64,000 nt of DNA from Erythrobasidium yunnanense (Eukaryota > Basidiomycota > Cystobasidiomycetes > Erythrobasidiales > Erythrobasidiaceae), in the NCBI GenBank assembly GCA_001600175.1, contig BCJC01000006.1:62001-126000 (forward strand), read 5' to 3'. This document shows positions 7,847 through 63,816 of this stretch, piece by piece (positions within the stretch are counted from its first letter, which is position 1; each line of letters begins with the position of its first letter). Position numbers and translations under genes: made by a program. The notes below the pieces were generated by a model. The model ran no database searches, was not told the DNA's origin, and saw nothing but the letters and a program-made list of their open reading frames with translations.

Positions 7847-8359
7847 TCAGCAATCACCCGTGCCCATCTCCGACTCTCTCTGGGCCGCGCTTCCGCCGTA
7901 CACTCGACCTTTACCACGTAAAGCAACATGCTTTTCGCTCTTTCTGCTCCTCACGTGCTGCCTGTGTGATGGTGGCTGCAGCACAATTGGCTGATAATCG
8001 AGCGCCCCTGCGTGCCGGATCTGCTGCATCGAGCTCCTTCTGGGTGTTTTCGCAGCTGGCTTTCGTGCCTTCAAGCCTGTTAGTGTGTCACGACTGACAC
8101 TATCTGCTCGCTGCTGACTAGTCGGATCTGCCGACTTCTCAGCTGTCGACCGGTAGCGCTCCATGTCTCCGACTTTGACCAGAACAAGCTGCTGATACTC
8201 GAGTACGTCTGGTACCATGCTATGTCTCCCTGCGTTGTCTGTTTCGATGATTGCTTCCAATGTCGGCCTGGCGGAGCGAGGCGTTTCTGGCAGTCCAACC
8301 CATTCATTCCATGCAGGGTCCCAATCAACAGGACTTCGAACGTATGCTGGCCACTCCAT
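7847..8359 (-). CDS. Unknown protein family U1, copy 1 (about 170 residues)
   Basis: Uninterrupted frame starting with MEWPAYVRSPVDWDPAWNEW, followed by VGLPETPRSARP. A middle helix reads EYQQLVLVKVGDMERYRS, and the C-terminus is basic and low complexity with KGRVYGGSA. A second copy at 34316-34795 shares the first 32 residues almost exactly, plus the middle helix and the RVYG motif. The lysine- and arginine-rich tail suggests nucleic acid or nuclear association, which is inference only. I recognise no domain. Preservation of the frame in both copies while nucleotides differ argues that it is coding. The upstream 230 bases are also shared with the other copy. It converges with the SnoaL-like gene. 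Confidence 0.6.
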   Translation of the reverse strand: MEWPAYVRSPVDWDPAWNEWVGLPETPRSARPTLEAIIETDNAGRHSMVPDVLEYQQLVLVKVGDMERYRSTAEKSADPTSQQRADSVSRDTLTGLKARKPAAKTPRRSSMQQIRHAGALDYQPIVLQPPSHRQHVRSRKSEKHVALRGKGRVYGGSAAQRESEMGTGDC

Positions 8360-22038: not shown

Positions 22039-23274
22039 ATGTCTACTACAACCTTAACCACCCAGTCGCAGGCCGATGCAGCTACACCTGTTCTAAAACT
22101 TCGCAGTTCCACTGTCGGCGAGAATGACAGTGCAAGGACGCAAGGAGCTACTCATGGTCAGACACACAAGCAAGATCTTGCTTCAAACCCTTTCGAGCGA
22201 GTATGGCGAGGCAATCGCGCTGGATCCATCCGAATGCCAGGTGTACCCAAGTTTGACGATAAGTACGAAGAACGAGAATGGGTCAAAGTGATATAGATCT
22301 CCTAGTCGAGCATACTTATCACTGACCCAATGCATAGGCTCATATGGCTGCCGGATTCCGGTTTTGGGGCAAGATGGGCTTTGGAGAAGGCACAGCAGGC
22401 CACATCACAGTTCGAGACCCCGTCTTGACAGATCACTACTGGTGAGCATACTGTGATAGACTGCCGTGAGCTCGACTGAAGTGTCGTAACACAGGATGAA
22501 CCCCTTTGGCATGCACTTTTCGCTCATTCGCGTAAGCTTTCTCTCAGCGACAACTCAGAACAGCCCTCACATTCTGCCTACAGAAATCCGATCTCGTCCT
22601 GGTATCACCTGATGGCTATGTTACTGAACATGGCGCTCAATTACCTATCAACGAGGCCGGCTATGTGATTCACCATACTCTGCACAAGATGCGGCCCGAT
22701 GTCGTAGCCGCTGCCCACTGCCACAGTCTACATGGGAAGGCTTGGTCGGCGTTTGGAAAGCCTATCGATATTATGCAGCAGGATGCGTGCCTTTTCCACG
22801 ATAATCTGTCAGTCTATTCGAGCTATGGTGGCATTGTTCTCAGTGATCAAGAGGGCGCCAATATTGGTGAAGCCATCGGTCCGAAGAACATGTGCTGCAT
22901 CATGAAAAATCATGGTCTTCTGACGCGTGAGTATTGCTCAACTGGCCGGACGAGTGGACATGTACTGATATATATACCGCAGTTGGACGAACTGTGTTTG
23001 AGTGTATATACCTCTTTGGACTCCTGGACAAGCAATGCCATATGCAGCTTCTCGTAGAGGCCGCTGCGGCTAACGGAATCCCCAAGCATATCATCGATCC
23101 GGAAGACGCAGCTTATACGGCCGAGTCCAATGGATACTGGGAGACGGTCTACAATAATGTAAGTCGCCAACACAATCCTGTTGGAATTGCCGATTAACAA
23201 GTGCCTTTTGTCTGCAGTTCCAGCCAGAATATGATCTGCTGATGAAAGAGACCAAGGGAGATTTCCTCGAGTAG
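22039..23274 (+). CDS. Class II aldolase/adducin domain protein
   Basis: Inferred exons are 22039-22287, 22338-22441, 22495-22531, 22584-22926, 22983-23158 and 23218-23274. All are in frame with GT-AG joints. The fold is that of fuculose-phosphate aldolase. Key blocks are AAGFRFWGKMGFGEGTAGHI, PINEAGYVIHHTLH, the zinc-binding AAAHCHSLHGKAWSAFGKPI, and the third histidine in MKNHGLLT. The disordered N-terminus of about 70 residues is typical of fungal members. These proteins can be aldolases or may have lost catalysis; the metal-binding histidines are intact here. The protein ends ETKGDFLE. Confidence 0.88.
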
Positions 23275-34315: not shown

Positions 34316-34795
34316 ATGGAGTGGCCAGCATACGTACAGAGTCCTGTTGATTGGGATCCCGCATGGAATGAATGGGTAGGACTGCCAGAGACACCTCGCT
34401 CCGCCAGGCCGGCGAGCGCAAGCATCAAGCCAAAGACTGAAACGAACGACGACATGCTACCAGATGCGCGTGAGTATCAGCAGCTCGTTCTGGCCAAAGT
34501 CGGAGAGATGGAGCGCTACCGGTCGCCGGCCAACAAGCCGAACAAGCACACGGGCGGCAGGCCAGTGGAGTGTCTCAACAGAAGTCCAGACGAAAACGCG
34601 AACGCGCAGAAGCCAGCTGTGAAGCCCCGTACGAGGACGGCCATGCAGCAGGTCCGACACGCAGCCGCGCTGCACAGCCAGCTCACCGCGCAGCCATCGT
34701 CGCGCAGACAACAGGCTGGGAGCGGAAAGAGCGGAAAGCATAATGCTCAACGAGTGAAGGGCAGAGTATACGGAGTAAGCGCGGTCAGGACATAG
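34316..34795 (+). CDS. Unknown protein family U1, copy 2 (about 160 residues)
   Basis: Single exon starting MEWPAYVQSPVDWDPAWNEW, then VGLPETPRSARPASAS. The middle helix EYQQLVLAKVGEMERYRSP parallels copy 1. A basic tail includes MQQVRHAAAL and KGRVYGVSAVRT. Differences from copy 1 concentrate in the low-complexity tail, while the acidic-aromatic N-terminus is nearly invariant, which suggests purifying selection on the first 32 residues and the helix. No known domain recognised. Confidence 0.6.
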   Translation: MEWPAYVQSPVDWDPAWNEWVGLPETPRSARPASASIKPKTETNDDMLPDAREYQQLVLAKVGEMERYRSPANKPNKHTGGRPVECLNRSPDENANAQKPAVKPRTRTAMQQVRHAAALHSQLTAQPSSRRQQAGSGKSGKHNAQRVKGRVYGVSAVRT

Positions 34796-50939: not shown

Positions 50940-51770
50940 ACGATGAACGACAAGGGCCGAACCAAGCGCATCAACAAGCATCCATCCAATTATCCGTAGG
51001 TGGGAGGTCCGTCTCCTAGGAATCTAATTTGAACAATGTCTGCAATCTCTGCTCCGACTCTGGAAACAGCTGCCAGTATTGGTGAATTGCCGACTTTCGA
51101 TTAGACACTGCTGGCCCTCCGCTAATCTGCAGACTGGTTATGCTGCTAGTGAAAAGCGCTTTCAGCGCCAAGATCGATTGGATGCCCATCACAAGAAACA
51201 CTGGGCAGACATGACAGATACTCCCACTACGTACAGGTTTAAGTGAGTCGACGCACAAAGTGCCTGTGCAATGCCCCTGTTCTACGCACCTGATGCTTAT
51301 ATGTGCACGCTGGCAGTTGTGTCCACCCCGATTGGTGAGTAGGGCAGGCATTATTTAGCATTGTTACGGCCAGGACCTAAAGTACTGATTGGATGCTTGC
51401 AAAGTCAAGGGAATTCTCGACCAGTAGGCTTCGATCAAAACTCGGACCTTCAGCGACACTATCGAAGCAGACATGACAAAATCAAGTACAGGTACGGCCC
51501 GCGGAAGTGCAAAGTTCTAATGTCCAAGCTGAGCAACGAATCCAGATGCAACTGCTGGTAAGGCGCGGTGGTGATGCGCGTGAGCGGCTTGATGGAACAA
51601 TACTGATGGAGATCCTAGCCGCCAGACTTTCAAGCCTCGCTCAGATGGTTGGACGATTCACCTTCGCAGCCCGACCGCTCTTGCGATGGGATGTGCAAAG
51701 TACGGCTATGTGTGAGCGCATTTCAGTCAGAGAAGTCTGGAAAGCCATAAGTATGCTGAACATGCATTGA
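50940..51770 (+). pseudogene. Decayed zinc-finger gene, first copy of a tandem array
   Basis: A diverged relative of the two genes downstream. The finger-1 region reads NDKGRTKRINKHPSNYP with the first zinc histidine replaced by Arg. A candidate 18-nt exon (51317-51334, C-x4-C) is followed by a finger-2 exon (51405-51491) reading GFDQNSDLQRHYRSRH. Next comes a 12-nt exon (51546-51557, ATGCAACTGCTG, Cys-Asn-Cys-Cys), aligned with the 12-nt third-finger exon of the other copies. The third-finger exon is shortened but ends TACGGCTATGT before a donor, as in the other copies (TACGGATACGT, TCCGGCTACGT). I could not assemble an intact frame for the first part, so it is probably non-functional, though a diverged working gene cannot be excluded. 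Confidence 0.5.
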
Positions 51771-52289
51771 TTAAACAGCGAAGTCCTCGAAAGCGGTATT
51801 GAGATTTCAGAGACCAAGGGCATCTCACGACATGGCTTTGTATGACGCAATTTGCGGCCATGCATTCACAGATCTTTGCAATCCCACGTTCTAGACACCG
51901 AAGTAGCCTCATCGATCGCGAATGAGCGAGGTTTATAACGATATGCTTATCACCCAAATCCTGTTTCTGGCCCGAAGCGTCCCTTGCTGAATTTCCCTGC
52001 TCATGCTTCTACGGACCGGTGCTTCAGGGCGTAAAGATCACAATCGCTGGCGAAGCTCTGCAAAAGTGCCGACGGTGCATTGATCGCTAATGATGGCTCA
52101 AACAGATATCCGGCCTTTCATCTAGCGAGAGACGCCTACAGCAAACAGTCTGGATCAATATGGACATCTCAGCACAACATTGGAATTACAAGTGTTAGCT
52201 ATCTTCTGTACCGTAGAGCAAGCATGCGGAATCGCCAAGGACTGCTATTCTTTCGGCCTTCTCTGGCCCCTTCATTCTAACATCGGTGC
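51771..52289. other. Spacer between zinc-finger copies 1 and 2
   Basis: About 520 bases without a recognised gene. The block just downstream (52290-52478) is the conserved upstream element of copy 2. Confidence 0.35.
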
Positions 52290-52478
52290 GAGGGCAGCAA
52301 TGCATCATCATCTCCTCCACCTCCTTGTTGAGATCCACAAGATGTGGGGAACACAGGACACCTTTTTCTCAGCATTCCCTTTGTCAACCCTGCAAAACCT
52401 GTGCTGCCTCTGCTCGCTGCAAGCTGGCTCTTGGACTCTCGACAACCAGACTTCTGGCCTGACATTCGAAACAGCAAC
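52290..52478 (+). repeat. Conserved upstream block of zinc-finger copy 2
   Basis: Resembles 54325-54534 upstream of copy 3. Shared stretches in order include GCATCATCATC, TCAGCA(A/T)TCCCTTTGTC, CTGCAAAACCTGTGCTG, CTGCTCGCT, CAAGCTGGCTCT and CAGACTTCTGGCCT. It probably contains the promoter and 5' leader, duplicated along with the gene. Confidence 0.75.
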
Positions 52479-54027
52479 ATGCATAGCAGAGGGTCGACAA
52501 ACAAACATGCTTACAAATACTTGTAAGTTCGCGACAGATATTTCTGAGCTGTTGGAGTACTGAGTCCTCCACGACGTGGTTTTCATTTGATGCCTGCAGC
52601 TGTGACACATGGTAAGTAATAATTTGTTGACGAGCAGCATAGGCAGCATGGCTGATGCGGAACTTTATAGCAGCACCCCCTTTCAGCGTTCTAACAGATA
52701 CAAAGACCACATGAAGAAGCATGAAGCTGAGTCGTCTACACTGCGACATTAGTGAGTGTGAAGCAATCATCGCTTAGGTTGTATATGGTCTAAGTGGCCA
52801 TACTTCGCGCAAACAGCTGCTCCCCTTGGTAAAGGTCCGTCAGGCTTCAGAAGGCAATGCTAATGGACCGTTCGTACAGCAGAAAAGGCTTCGACCAGAA
52901 ATCGGACTACGATCGCCACATACGGACACACGAAGACACTAAAACGAAGTTCAGGTGAGCAGCAAACGGCGTCCTCCCTGCCTATTAATGTTGAACGTGG
53001 GCCTCCATCCAGATGCAATGCATGGTAAGCCACGAGAACGGCTCGCCTTGCAAAGGGCAGTTACTGATTGCCCAGAATCGAATAGTCATAAGGAGGTTTC
53101 AGCCCGCACAGATGCATGGCTGCGTCACACCCGCTCCGAGAGGGCTGTAGCTTCCCGATGCAGCAACTACGGATACGTGCAAGTTGGAATCTCGCTAGAC
53201 CAATAAAGCCCTACTGACTGTCCGCTTGCCTCAGGGTTGTCGATTCTGGCGGAAAGACAATATCAGAAACGCGAGGCATCGCTGCGGGTCGATCTCGACA
53301 GCAAGTAGGCCTGCAGCACACCCAGACTTGGTTTCCATCAGAGCCCACAGTTCAGATGGCTCCAGGGGATCCGTATGCCTGGTCATCAGCGTCTGCGCCA
53401 CAACTTGGCTTCCCGTACCCAGGAGCTCCGCAAAGCTATGGAAACTACAATTACCACGCCCCGCCACTAAACCCTGGTCTGCCCGCATACCCAGCTACAG
53501 ATGCTTACGGTCAGCCCATTTACTATACGCCTCCTCCGCCTGTGTACTATCCTCCTCTTCCTCCTCAGCATCAAGTATATCATCAACAGTACGTCCTTTT
53601 CGATGCACCTCAAGCTAGTCCCCGTGCCTGACGCCTTGCTTTGCAGACGGCCCAATCCTGGCATTGTCAATAACTTCTCTGGTAGACAACAGCCCAGAAT
53701 GCAAACACCTCACGCTGAGCAGAATACGTAAGAAAGTTCCCATACACGCGTGCAGGGGCTAGCTTGCTGAACCGCCTGCGTTCTTATGCGCCCAGAAGCC
53801 ACATAGAGCGGAGACCCGCTACGCCCAAAGGTCGGTCTGCAACACCCAAAAGTCGACCCGCTACGCCTGCACCCAGGGACCGCCGATCAAGATCCCGATC
53901 CAGACGCAGCCAATCTCGAGCACGAAGCCGAAGCGTCGGAGGCAGAGGCAATATTGGGTCTTTGAGCTCGGAGAACAGTTATGATCAGGAAGAGGAAGAC
54001 ATGTTCGCCAAGTATATACGATACTGA
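52479..54027 (+). CDS. C2H2 zinc-finger protein with microexon-encoded Cys knuckles and RS tail, copy 2
   Basis: Ten inferred exons: 52479-52522, 52600-52611, 52671-52751, 52817-52828, 52880-52954, 53013-53024, 53086-53178, 53235-53588, 53647-53727 and 53763-54027. They total 1029 nt, or 342 residues plus stop. Fingers 1 and 2 have perfect C-x2-C-x12-H-x3-H spacing (CDTC + STPFQRSNRYKDHMKKH; CSPC + RKGFDQKSDYDRHIRTH). Finger 3 (CNAC + HKEVSARTDAWLRH) lacks the usual second histidine. Each CxxC sits alone in a 12-nt exon between phase-2 introns. The intron after 53178 has a GC donor (GCAAGT). The rest is rich in Pro, Tyr and Gln (YYTPPPPVYYPPLPPQHQ), then RPATPK-like repeats and an Arg/Ser run (RDRRSRSRSRRSQSRARSRS), ending GRGNIG and an acidic stretch. 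Nuclear nucleic-acid binding is inferred. Confidence 0.82.
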
Positions 54028-54324
54028 CGCTGTCACATGCGGACGGCAAGAGCCAGTCACCATGCCGCACACGAATACTGACTTACCACTTTATACGACA
54101 ACGATCTGCCGGGCACATGATCCGATACAACCAACCACTCAACGAAACTATGTACATTACCTGCTCACTCGCCGCATGCATGCTTGAAGTCTAGCGGCTG
54201 CTGTTCGCTTACGACGCACCGTTTAGCGTAGTCGTCCACTCCAAACAGAGTGAGCCAACGTTTGGCGGAACCGCGAAATTCTGCCTCCTTCCTCCTCTTT
54301 CTGTCGTGCTCTGACTGGTACAAG

Positions 54325-54534
54325 AGCAGCAGTGCATCATCATCCCCTTCGATTGTTTGACGAAGTCCACAAGATGCCGATAACAAAGGATTTACTATTG
54401 TCAGCAATCCCTTTGTCACTCCTGCAAAACCTGTGCTGGCCCTGCTCGCTACAAGCTGGCTCTCGGATTCTTGCAAGCTGGCTCTCAACCTCTCGAGAAG
54501 CAGACTTCTGGCCTTAACACTCGGAATCAGCAGC
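54325..54534 (+). repeat. Conserved upstream block of zinc-finger copy 3
   Basis: Second copy of the block at 52290-52478. It carries a short internal duplication of CAAGCTGGCTCTC near 54461-54486 that the other copy lacks. The bases between 54028 and 54324 hold no recognised gene. Confidence 0.75.
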
Positions 54535-55589
54535 ATGTCTAGCAGAGGATCGACCAACAAGCATGCTTACGAGTACTTGTACGTTCGCGACAAAGATTTC
54601 TGAGAGTTGAACACTGAGCCCTCCACGATGTTGTGTCCTTAGGACGTCTACATCTACAGGTGCGAAATATGGTGAGTCATGGCTCTTAGCAAGTAGCGAT
54701 CGATAGCATGACTGATGCGGATCTTAATAGCAATACCCCCTTCCAGCGTGCTTACAGATACAGGGACCACATGAACAAGCACGCTGGAGTTGGGCCTTAT
54801 AGACATCGGTAAGTACAGGAATGTAAGGTTTTCGAGACTTGCAAAGCCACTTACTCGCCACTGCCTGCACGCAAATAGCTGTTCCACTTGGTGAAGATCC
54901 ATATGTCCACTTGGAAAAGGGTGATGCTGATATCGTGTGTGCATAGCAATAAGTCGTTCAATAACAAATCGGATCTTGATCGCCACATACCGACACATGA
55001 AGGTAACAAGACGAAGTTCAAGTGAGTTACAGCGGACACGCACTCCTACATTTAATGGATGCTGACCTGGCCGCGCCTAGATGTAATGGGTGGTAAGCGT
55101 TGCGGCTGCTCGCCTTACAGATTAAAGGCCAGGCGCTGACTGTCTGAGCTTGTGAAGTTCCCTGCCGGTGTCGGCTCGCAAAGATGCATGGAAGCGTCAT
55201 GCCCGCTCCGATGGGGGTATACTGAACCGGTGTAGCGAGTCCGGCTACGTGTAAGTGGGCATTGTTCTGGAACAATAGCCTCACGCTGACTGTAACGCTA
55301 CCTTAGAGTCATCGATTCTAACGAGAACGTTATATCAGGAACGCAAGGCATCTTTACCATCGAAACTCAGGATTCAAGAGAAAGAAGATCCGCTACGCCC
55401 AAAGCTCGAGCTGGCAAGCCGGCGCGTAGGTCTCGTCAACCAAAGCCTCAGGCCGGACCCAGTGGATCACGAGAACGTAGCCGAAGCGCTGAAGGTAGAG
55501 GCAATATCGGATATTTCACATTCGAAGAGAGCTACGCCACTTCTGACCCGAATTTCTTCGAGCAAGCCTGGGATCCCCAGTTGCACTAG
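54535..55589 (+). CDS. C2H2 zinc-finger protein with microexon-encoded Cys knuckles, copy 3
   Basis: Eight inferred exons: 54535-54578, 54660-54671, 54731-54808, 54879-54890, 54947-55021, 55081-55092, 55158-55250 and 55307-55589. They total 609 nt, or 202 residues. Exons 1, 2, 4, 5, 6 and 7 have exactly the same lengths as in copy 2 (44, 12, 12, 75, 12 and 93 nt). Fingers 1 and 2 are canonical (CEIC + NTPFQRAYRYRDHMNKH; CSTC + NKSFNNKSDLDRHIPTH). Finger 3 (CNGC + SLPVSARKDAWKRH) lacks the last histidine, as in copy 2. The last exon has RRSATPKARAGKPARR, then RERSRSAEGRGNIG and an acidic, aromatic end. It lacks the Pro/Tyr-rich part of copy 2. Likely a nuclear DNA- or RNA-binding protein. Confidence 0.84.
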
Positions 55590-61132: not shown

Positions 61133-62310
61133 TCAAAACTTTGACTCTCCTTCACCTTCAATAGCTGTACTTTGCCCTTTCAGGATTCGTTTGGCCTCTT
61201 TAAGGACTTGTTGCATGTTGATAGACGGCGGCTCGCGGTTTCCCCTTGTTATCATCTCGTCGCAAAGCTGATCAAGCGCTTCGCTACGATACTGGGTGGA
61301 CTGCAACAACTGAAGTGGCTTCTCGTCAGCTGACAGGGAATTCGCGGGTACACGGAAGAGTGATACCCACGATCTCTTTCAGTAGACGTCCCAAAGCCCG
61401 TATGTCAAACTCGACTTCCGTGCATCTTGTGTGAGGGCTTCTTTCGTGGATTGCTGGGCCCTTGCGGCAGCACTCGAAGTCGATGATGCTGATCTTGGAT
61501 GTACTTTTATCGAGCAATATATTAGCACGATGTAAGTCTCCGTGGGTTATGTCGTGTTCGTGCAGGAAGGCAATTCCCTGTCCGAAATTGTTAGACTGAA
61601 GCATTGAGCAGACCAAGAGGAGACCTGCACACCTCAATGATACTCAGGAGAGTGGTCCTGCAATCTTGAGCCGTCTTAAAGATTACTTGGCCAATCGGTA
61701 TCCCGCCGTATCGCAATACCTGAACATGGCAGGGTCGGCCAAAGTATGTAGTAGGTAAAACATCCAACATAACTGGAGGTATAAATTGCTTACAGTCAGT
61801 AATATTCATCGACCGCACGGTGTGCATGAATCGCTTACCAACAGTGTGATTCTGCTTTTGTTTGCGCATATGCGGTGCATTCAAGAACCTCATAACTTCC
61901 AGCTCACGAGAGCCACTCTTCGGAATCCAACGTAGTACTACCAACATTTTGTCTGTGATCCTGTGAGCTCTTTTGACCATATCCGAGTCGTAGTCAGCCA
62001 CCGCGACCTTTTCGCCGGGTGCCTCGTCCGTGCAGTAGACGTAGCCAGCTTGTCTCAGCTGCGGGGTGAACATTTCCCAGAAGTTTGCACAGTATATCCT
62101 CCGTTGGGCTCTCGGTGAGATCGACGATGCAGAAAGCTTTTCTGGACGAGCTGGCACACTTTCGCGTTCCATGCATATCTGTTTGTCGTGGCTGGCATTC
62201 CTTGAAGTTATCGGGCTAGGTTTGCTGCCACCGCTTCGAGTTCTACTGCGTGGGTTGGCGATACCGGTACTGGTAGAACTGCTTTTGCGACTTTCGAATG
62301 GAGAGCTCAT
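61133..62310 (-). CDS. Divergent protein-kinase-like protein, second copy
   Basis: The first in-frame ATG is at 62310 (MSSPFESRKSSSTSTG), followed by a Ser/Arg-rich, disordered N-terminus of about 60 residues. The N-lobe has KMLVVLRWIPKSGSRELEVM, where the usual beta-3 Lys position reads Arg, and FLNAPHMRKQKQNHTV. An intron precedes VMLDVLPTTYFGRPCHVQVL. The catalytic loop is HGDLHRANILLD (H-x-D-x4-N), and DFG reads DFE (IIDFECC). The C-terminal helices have EFDIRALGRLLKEIV and ALDQLCDEMITRGN, ending GEGESKF. The H-x-D-x4-N loop and N-H-x-V motif match the kinase family expanded in basidiomycetes. Catalytic activity is doubtful but not excluded. Confidence 0.78.
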
Positions 62311-62520
62311 CTCACTTGATTCCTGTTGGCCAGAGCCAGACGATGTGTGAGCTAGCGGAGTCAGACACTCAAAATCTGCAAATCTGAAGGATGTGTCCCT
62401 CGACAATCGTTGCGGCGGTGCTTCTCGATTAAACGTCTGACTGACCGATGGGTAGCATCTAATCGAATCGTGAACATGAGGTGTTCCTAGTGAGGATGGA
62501 TCTTGCTGTGACTGTGTATC

Positions 62521-63816
62521 TCATGCATTGCCTAGCACTTCTAGGAGCCGCAGACAGCATTTCTGCATCTTGTTTTTGTGGACTTGAGGATCGATAGCTC
62601 CAGTCGAGGAAGCATCGCGCATCGTTTGCAAGAGACGGGTCAGTCGAGGTAGAGGATAGCGTTTGAGCATCTTCGAGGTGCGCAATACAAGAAACCCGCG
62701 AATCAGCGCTGCCCTCCCAGTCGCAATGAGCAGAAGAAGCAGAGTGACGCACCAGCTGAAAGCCATCCAAGAACATTTCCCCAACCTTCCTCATGTCGTC
62801 CTCAAGCAGTGTTCTCCCATTTCTCGCCTCAGAATCGCGTACATAGATTGCGCTTCCGCGCTTGCTGGCTTCGAAATCTATGATTGTGATCTTGCGGGTC
62901 TTAGGATGAACGAGGATGTTGCGCGCTGCTGTATCCACATGAGCGATCTCTTGCGAGTGGAGGAAGGCATAGGCCTATCAAAAACAATCCACGCTCAGCG
63001 ACTCATCCTACTCAGGGGACATGGAGATGATGCGGAAGCTGCACCTACCTCGAAGACGGAGACTATGAAGTCTAGCCAGGAATCAGGAGTCTTCCAGAAG
63101 TTCTGCTCTCCGAAAAGAGCAGACATGATCCCGCTTGGCTCCATGACGATGAAGGTGCAAGACCAGATATCGTGCTTTGTATATAGCGTGTCGAGGAGGC
63201 CTACCGCACACATAGATATATCAGTGATAGTCCGCTCTGCTTCTGGAATGAGCGGTGACTTACGGACTGTATGATTATGCTTTTTCGCTCGCAAATCTGG
63301 ACTGTTCAGAGATTGCATGATCTCTAATTCCTGGCTTTTTTCATCCTTCTTCTCCAGTATCCTTCTAACAATCACAAGTTTCCTATCCTTCACCCGCTTC
63401 GCTTTTCGAACTAGATCCCAAGCCTTATCAGGGAAGATGTCCGCATTATACTGATCTCTGTGTTCTTCTGTATCAGGAGTAGAGCTTGTTGATGCATTTG
63501 TGCCTTCAGATGACGGCAGCTGTAGACGGTAGCCTGCTCTCTGGATCTCTCGATCCATGATTGCCCAATATCGAGATGAGCGTAAGCGAAATGGAGGCCC
63601 GCTTGAATTGCTGCGACTACGGCAGAGCCTTCGTCCGCGATCCTGACAGGCACTACTGCAGGAGGAAGAGCGTGAAGAGGATGATGAGGGGCGGCCGCGC
63701 TGCTTCACGCTAGAGGAAAGCTTCGGATTCGTTTTGCTGCTGCTAGTTGACATTAATGATGTGCGGCTGATGCCTCTGTTACCAGCGCGATTTGAAGACG
63801 GCTCGTCTGAACTCAT
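62521..63816 (-). CDS. Divergent protein-kinase-like protein, first copy
   Basis: The start MSSDEPSSNRAGNRGISRTS precedes a Ser/Arg-rich disordered region of about 75 residues. N-lobe: YWAIMDREIQRAGYRLQ, KLVIVRRILEKKDEKSQELE and MQSLNSPDLRAKKHNHTV; again Arg replaces the expected beta-3 Lys. After an intron come LLDTLYTKHDIWSCTFIVME and WLDFIVSVFE. After a second intron the catalytic loop reads HVDTAARNILV, then IIDFEASKRGSAIY (DFG to DFE). After a last intron (from about 62728 to 62670) the end is MLKRYPLPRLTRLLQTMRDA to VLGNA. Shares architecture and intron positions with the next copy. Role unknown. Confidence 0.78.

Follow-up and report, generated by a model that had tools for sequence, protein, structure and literature searches.

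Zinc knuckles on separate predicted microexons in a tandem cluster of C2H2-type zinc-finger genes from Erythrobasidium yunnanense

Closest described systems

Fungal microexons with a demonstrated role are few (PMC11121469). The closest described case is Xlr2 of Trichoderma virens, a gene in which a microexon of 20 nucleotides (nt) encodes the stretch PCRRCE with two cysteines of a zinc cluster and is included in the absence of glucose (PMC11121469). Here, we compare this and other known systems with a tandem cluster of three zinc-finger genes located on the forward strand between 50.9 and 55.6 kb of a 64,000-nt stretch from the basidiomycete Erythrobasidium yunnanense (contig BCJC01000006.1; this whole stretch is called the window and all coordinates refer to it). 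In the gene models presented here each predicted zinc-binding Cys-x2(4)-Cys knuckle is very probably encoded by a coding exon of its own that is 12 nt long in eight cases and 18 nt long in the ninth.

The likeness to Xlr2 consists in a fungal transcription factor with a microexon that carries zinc-binding cysteines and that had been missed by automatic annotation; there the microexon is described as conserved within the genus and as needed for the DNA-binding domain (PMC11121469). In contrast with the Erythrobasidium genes, Xlr2 possesses a Zn(II)2Cys6 cluster with one microexon in one gene, the length of 20 nt is not a multiple of three and inclusion is tied to glucose, whereas each of the three tandem genes here has fingers of the C2H2 type and three microexons with lengths divisible by three. 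Other basidiomycetous genes share with the cluster very short exons flanked by short introns, namely P450 genes of Phanerochaete chrysosporium with microexons of 2–10 amino acids and introns of 45–55 bp (PMC1184071) and genes of Cryptococcus neoformans with exons down to 1 bp (PMC3990503). The Phanerochaete microexons are spread over families, and the accessible sections of that study describe no layout with one microexon per structural motif (PMC1184071).

Typical C2H2 proteins (Pfam PF00096 and PF13894; CTCF, ZNF568, TFIIIA) have the same ligand spacing as fingers 1 and 2 of two genes of the cluster but differ from them in that here two exons share each finger and the knuckle has a microexon to itself. 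Another gene family with series of symmetric microexons is that of the schistosome micro-exon genes, whose products are secreted, variable fluke proteins that are not known to contain zinc knuckles. A family with one knuckle per microexon is not described in the open-access literature searched, so that the statement of an earlier note on this DNA that no such family was known is not contradicted there, but Xlr2 has to be regarded as a close precedent. Short exons as such were already known in basidiomycetes; the genes described here are of C2H2 type with one microexon per zinc knuckle.

Three tandem genes with nine knuckle microexons

The earlier note had claimed this layout for two tandem genes, here named genes 1 and 2. 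The claim is borne out and now comprises three copies instead of two. The additional gene 0 was located by searching the window with the spliced proteins (tblastn) together with a repeat search, followed by reading of the region 50.9–51.8 kb. As it was absent from the earlier note it represents an independent check of the microexon layout. The gene models are the following.

50943–51845, forward strand: gene 0, third and more divergent paralog, 435 nt, 144 amino acids plus stop; exons 50943–50995, 51070–51081, 51150–51242, 51317–51334, 51405–51491, 51546–51557, 51619–51711 and 51779–51845
52479–54027, forward strand: gene 1, 996 nt, 331 amino acids plus stop; exons 52479–52522, 52600–52611, 52671–52751, 52817–52828, 52880–52954, 53013–53024, 53086–53178, 53235–53588, 53647–53727 and 53796–54027
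54535–55589, forward strand: gene 2, 609 nt, 202 amino acids plus stop; exons 54535–54578, 54660–54671, 54731–54808, 54879–54890, 54947–55021, 55081–55092, 55158–55250 and 55307–55589

The exon lengths 44-12-(81/78)-12-75-12-93 given in the earlier note for genes 1 and 2 were reproduced, and gene 0 shows the same order in its eight exons with lengths of 53-12-93-18-87-12-93-67. The final exon of gene 0, EVLESGIEISETKGI, can be aligned with the beginning of the exon that follows in genes 1 and 2 (VVDSGGKTISETRGI and VIDSNENVISGTQGI, respectively). The total length of 609 nt proposed for gene 2 was obtained again, but for gene 1 we arrive at 996 nt (also in frame) instead of 1029 nt, a discrepancy confined to the C-terminal exons outside the finger region. 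There gene 1 encodes a Pro/Tyr-rich and Arg/Ser-rich tail; gene 2 has an Arg/Ser-rich tail that is missing in gene 0.

The nine knuckle microexons can be listed as follows; four of them were recovered as exact 12-nt exons by a gene finder in its permissive setting (see below).

51070–51081, forward strand: gene 0, knuckle microexon 1, 12 nt, PCQYC
51317–51334, forward strand: gene 0, knuckle microexon 2, 18 nt, NCVHPDC (C-x4-C)
51546–51557, forward strand: gene 0, knuckle microexon 3, 12 nt, RCNCC, exact in the permissive held-out parse
52600–52611, forward strand: gene 1, knuckle microexon 1, 12 nt, FCDTC, exact in the permissive parse
52817–52828, forward strand: gene 1, knuckle microexon 2, 12 nt, YCSPC, weak downstream donor GTAAAG
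53013–53024, forward strand: gene 1, knuckle microexon 3, 12 nt, RCNAC, exact in the permissive parse
54660–54671, forward strand: gene 2, knuckle microexon 1, 12 nt, LCEIC
54879–54890, forward strand: gene 2, knuckle microexon 2, 12 nt, RCSTC, weak downstream donor GTGAAG
55081–55092, forward strand: gene 2, knuckle microexon 3, 12 nt, KCNGC, exact in the permissive parse

The six 12-nt segments of genes 1 and 2 were found exactly where they had been proposed, with AG before and GT after them, and all six follow the pattern AG/N TGY NNN NNN TG/GT between phase-2 introns. If exons of about 30 nt or less are called microexons, all nine qualify over the three paralogs: they are 12 or 18 nt long, flanked by AG and GT, symmetric in phase (2-2) and conserved in their cysteines. 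The 6-nt length change in microexon 2 of gene 0 keeps the phase and leads to C-x4-C. Each finger is split in the same manner: the microexon contributes the Cys-x2(4)-Cys knuckle and an exon of 75–93 nt the remainder of the finger. Also the intron positions are equal in all nine fingers; both introns are in phase 2, the first interrupting the codon that precedes the first cysteine and the second that of the second cysteine.

With both strands searched the knuckle pattern AGNTGYNNNNNNTGGTRA has eight matches in the window, all of them on the forward strand and inside the three genes, whereas 100 dinucleotide shuffles gave a mean of 0.13 and a maximum of 2 (0/100 reached eight). This pattern was composed after six of the matches had been seen; the remaining two are those of gene 0, and the 18-nt microexon falls outside of it. 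Generic AG-12-GTRMG sites are common, with 26 on the forward and 14 on the reverse strand of the window, five of them in the cluster. Therefore, a bare 12-nt unit between AG and GT is no evidence by itself; what counts is the knuckle that it contains and the fact that this recurs. Upstream of the half-finger exons, read to the first stop or over about 60 amino acids, no in-frame C-x2-C or C-x4-C was found in any of the nine cases. Splicing to the microexon is thus the only local way to complete a finger, and a construction from another exon set, which the earlier note had named among its refuting observations, is offered by 0/9 half-finger exons. A scan of the window for half-fingers listed other motif matches, none of which carries the knuckle pattern. 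Judged from the sequence, it is very probable that the 12-nt segments are true coding exons with one Cys-x2-Cys knuckle each, and there is a high probability that the architecture of one knuckle per microexon is real and unusual.

Fingers, selection and origin of the cluster

The earlier note was right for genes 1 and 2 in that fingers 1 and 2 obtain the spacing C-x2-C-x12-H-x3-H only with the microexons spliced in. Finger 1 of gene 0 shows this spacing as well, so the C2H2 signature C-x2-4-C-x12-H-x3-5-H with a hydrophobic core is found in five fingers (fingers 1 and 2 of genes 1 and 2, with F and Y/L at the core positions, and finger 1 of gene 0). For all three proteins the best Pfam matches are C2H2 families. 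Gene 2 reaches 39.3 bits for zf-C2H2_4 (cut-off 27 bits) and 34.1 bits for zf-C2H2 (cut-off 25.2 bits), both above the cut-off, and falls to 18.4 and 16.8 bits without the microexons; for gene 1 the corresponding values are 25.2 and 21.3 bits and, without microexons, 13.1 and 13.2 bits, the microexon-less copies of these two genes being additionally cut after the finger region. In gene 0 the zf-C2H2_4 match of 26 bits is lost without the microexons and zf-C2H2 drops from 17.5 to 15.6 bits. The finger region of gene 2 is matched by 203 PDB sequences (E up to 0.1, best E 7.9e-23), with ZNF568, CTCF and TFIIIA among the matches listed (60 of 203). These similarities suggest that the three genes encode small, nucleic-acid-binding zinc-finger proteins of C2H2 type that would bind zinc and DNA or RNA and are probably located in the nucleus.

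Purifying selection acts on the coding regions. For the roughly 124 codons of the finger region the NG86 method yields a nonsynonymous divergence (dN) of 0.273 and a synonymous divergence (dS) of 0.793 for genes 1 and 2, and 0.644 and 1.877, respectively, for genes 0 and 2 (dS is saturated for genes 0 and 1), which corresponds to dN/dS of about 0.34. Differences between genes 1 and 2 are distributed over the codon positions as 29/31/48 in 125 codons. The alignment of the three proteins contains 45 invariant columns including all six knuckle cysteines, and the codons of the first cysteine vary silently (five TGC and four TGT). Microexon 1 of gene 0 has just 50% identity with the others and the Cys codons are kept. 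With splice ends trimmed, identities of exons, microexons and introns are 215/286, 27/36 and 231/349 for genes 1 and 2, 185/285, 27/35 and 197/325 for genes 0 and 1, and 174/264, 25/36 and 205/338 for genes 0 and 2. Among the paralogous intron pairs, 13/21 are at or below shuffled identity (within 0.03 of the mean).

Several observations weigh against functional three-finger genes of this design. Finger 3 has in all three genes the non-canonical form C-x2-C-x13-H-x10-C with cysteine as fourth ligand, and finger 2 of gene 0 is C-x4-C-x17-H-x4-H and likewise non-canonical; both differ in this respect from the C2H2 proteins mentioned above. Genes 0 and 1 stay under the Pfam cut-off for every C2H2 family (just below it for zf-C2H2_4). 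Between genes 1 and 2, introns 1, 2 and 7 retain an identity higher than that of shuffled sequences (0.76, 0.69 and 0.73). The acceptors of the cluster are weaker than those of the training genes (mean 2.95 vs 4.13, P = 0.001), a gap that is at least partly caused by the choice of training introns by strength. A small Viterbi gene finder trained outside 50.8–55.7 kb predicts in its strict setting no gene when the three stretches are given alone and, with the whole window, just a fragment around 52600–52611. Its permissive setting, which recovered 4/9 microexons in the held-out region, over-predicts introns and has 23/148 internal exons at 30 nt or less; the strict setting, which misses the genes, has 2/45 (the shortest 29 nt), and neither of them gives a fair base rate for microexons.

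Failure of the gene finders and the two genes under the Pfam cut-offs, together with the fact that generic AG-12-GTRMG sites are not rare, would be in line with decaying or non-coding remnants, that is, with degenerate fingers into which chance AG...GT units have been read as 12-nt exons. We consider this highly improbable, because the knuckle pattern exceeds its expectation by far (8 vs 0.13), all nine fingers are completed in three paralogs, dN/dS is low and the frames of 996, 609 and 435 nt are open.

The reading that we regard as clearly the most probable is that of small three-finger proteins of C2H2 type with cassette-duplicated fingers and microexons that are mostly constitutively spliced. 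An ancestral finger cassette, consisting of knuckle microexon and helix exon with both introns, would have been duplicated within one gene, and the whole gene would then have been duplicated in tandem twice. Since the intron sites are identical in nine fingers, cassette copying plus tandem duplication requires the fewest events, and 2-2 symmetric exons keep the frame when copied within a gene. Cassette duplication and constitutive inclusion are what we infer for this cluster. A repeated 5' flank is found upstream of two of the genes:

52285–52439, forward strand: repeated 5' flank of 155 nt upstream of gene 1, with its copy at 54317–54471 upstream of gene 2 (77% identity, gapless)

Its presence upstream of both genes means that the duplication carried the 5' flank along. 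Independent insertion of introns at preferred sites (introner-like or by proto-splice-site bias), with the same two codons hit in each finger, appears unlikely. It could account for phase 2 in all 23 introns, including those outside the fingers, and by eye the fingers within one gene are too diverged for cassette copying to show in the DNA. However, two insertions at exactly equivalent sites would be required in each of three fingers; moreover, paralogous introns mostly resemble each other no more than shuffled sequences do, and no common intron sequence was seen (without a systematic comparison between the introns of different fingers). A search with the three-protein alignment gave 48 pattern stretches in viral contigs and 27 in bacterial and archaeal genome contigs, and one with the alignment of exon 7 gave 30 stretches in viral contigs; none was confirmed, and these collections of viruses, bacteria and archaea are uninformative on eukaryotic relatives.

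At the end of exons 53086–53178, 55158–55250 and 51619–51711 the intron after finger 3 stands behind GY(V), by eye similar to the aromatic residue before the knuckle introns. This might mark a lost fourth finger cassette.

Elsewhere in the window a candidate for a fourth paralog, obtained by tblastn at 22346, was dismissed by eye; in another frame the stretch resembles a class II aldolase. Dispersed paralogs starting with MEWPAYVRSPVDWDPAWNEWVGLPETPRSARP and MEWPAYVQSPVDWDPAWNEWVGLPETPRSARP were seen at 7847–8359 (reverse strand) and 34316–34795 (forward strand), without a Pfam family above cut-off. Two adjoining open reading frames at 61591–62406 and 62995–63816 (both reverse strand) are paralog-like by eye (ELEVMRFLNAPHMRKQKQNHTV and ELEIMQSLNSPDLRAKKHNHTV), and neither matches a Pfam family at E up to 0.1. 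The ribosomal protein P0 at 35384–35875 matches eukaryotic P0 chains, best 7olc.

Splicing of the microexons and significance

Phase 2, stated in the earlier note for the introns that flank the microexons of genes 1 and 2, is found throughout, in 23/23 introns of the three genes; in 14 other predicted genes of the window it applies to 23/58 introns. For the nine introns of gene 1 this would occur by chance about 2 times in 10,000 if they were independent, which they are not if cassettes were copied. The introns are short (51–81 nt). Intron 7 of gene 1 (53179) is a GC-AG intron with the donor GCAAGT, its paralogs having GTGAGC (gene 0) and GTAAGT (gene 2). Donor strength in the cluster equals that in the other genes (mean 4.87 vs 4.92, P = 0.70). 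In a plant study tiny exons were reported to be spliced less efficiently since the machinery cannot assemble at both ends simultaneously (PMC8831610). In the three genes recognition of each short intron singly (intron definition) would remove this handicap, the microexons would be included as a rule, the full finger would be the default product and three fingers would grip the nucleic acid. RNA folding around the nine segments is not unusual (z from -0.93 to 2.15), and this lack of excess folding speaks against an RNA structure that loops out the microexons. Recursive splicing was rejected as a general explanation, since only microexon 1 of gene 2 begins with GT directly after AG (1/9).

If retained, 22/23 introns introduce a stop, in 19 of them at the second codon, because the bases TRA of a GTRA donor in phase 2 are read as the stop. 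Such a stop upon retention of phase-2 GTRA introns may be a general fail-safe.

The earlier note had also proposed that skipping of a microexon keeps the frame and that alternative inclusion could switch single fingers on or off. The first part holds for 9/9 single skips; the second found no backing in the donors, which are ordinary overall. With such a switch each knuckle microexon would be left out in certain conditions, and one gene could produce as many as eight in-frame combinations of fingers that differ in binding specificity. We judge this to be quite unlikely. In its favour, genes 1 and 2 have a weak donor behind microexon 2 (GTAAAG and GTGAAG, at the 5th and 2nd percentile of 58 donors), and the Xlr2 microexon with its two zinc-cluster cysteines is regulated by glucose (PMC11121469). 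But the open frame results from exons of 12 or 18 nt between phase-2 introns, so in-frame skipping is nearly automatic here, the donor of microexon 2 in gene 0 is strong (86th percentile) and RNA folding is ordinary. Moreover, the short form of Xlr2 is reported not to arise by simple skipping, as 0 reads joined exons 1 and 3 (PMC11121469). Messages with a retained intron can be eliminated as nonsense and those with a skipped microexon cannot, which leaves room for a switch, yet it is no demonstration. A combinatorial finger code, in which single fingers are disarmed by in-frame knuckle skipping with up to 24 combinations from three genes, has to be rated as marginally less probable still. Splicing could even be influenced in return by the Arg/Ser-rich tails that genes 1 and 2 encode.

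Gene finders miss microexons, and the one used here missed these genes too; C2H2 genes of such a design would easily be annotated as fragments or lost. The nine knuckle microexons in three paralogs represent a natural case in which exon boundaries cut around one metal-binding half-site, finger by finger. This system lets one ask whether C2H2 arrays grow by copying of two-exon cassettes and whether splicing can disarm single fingers.

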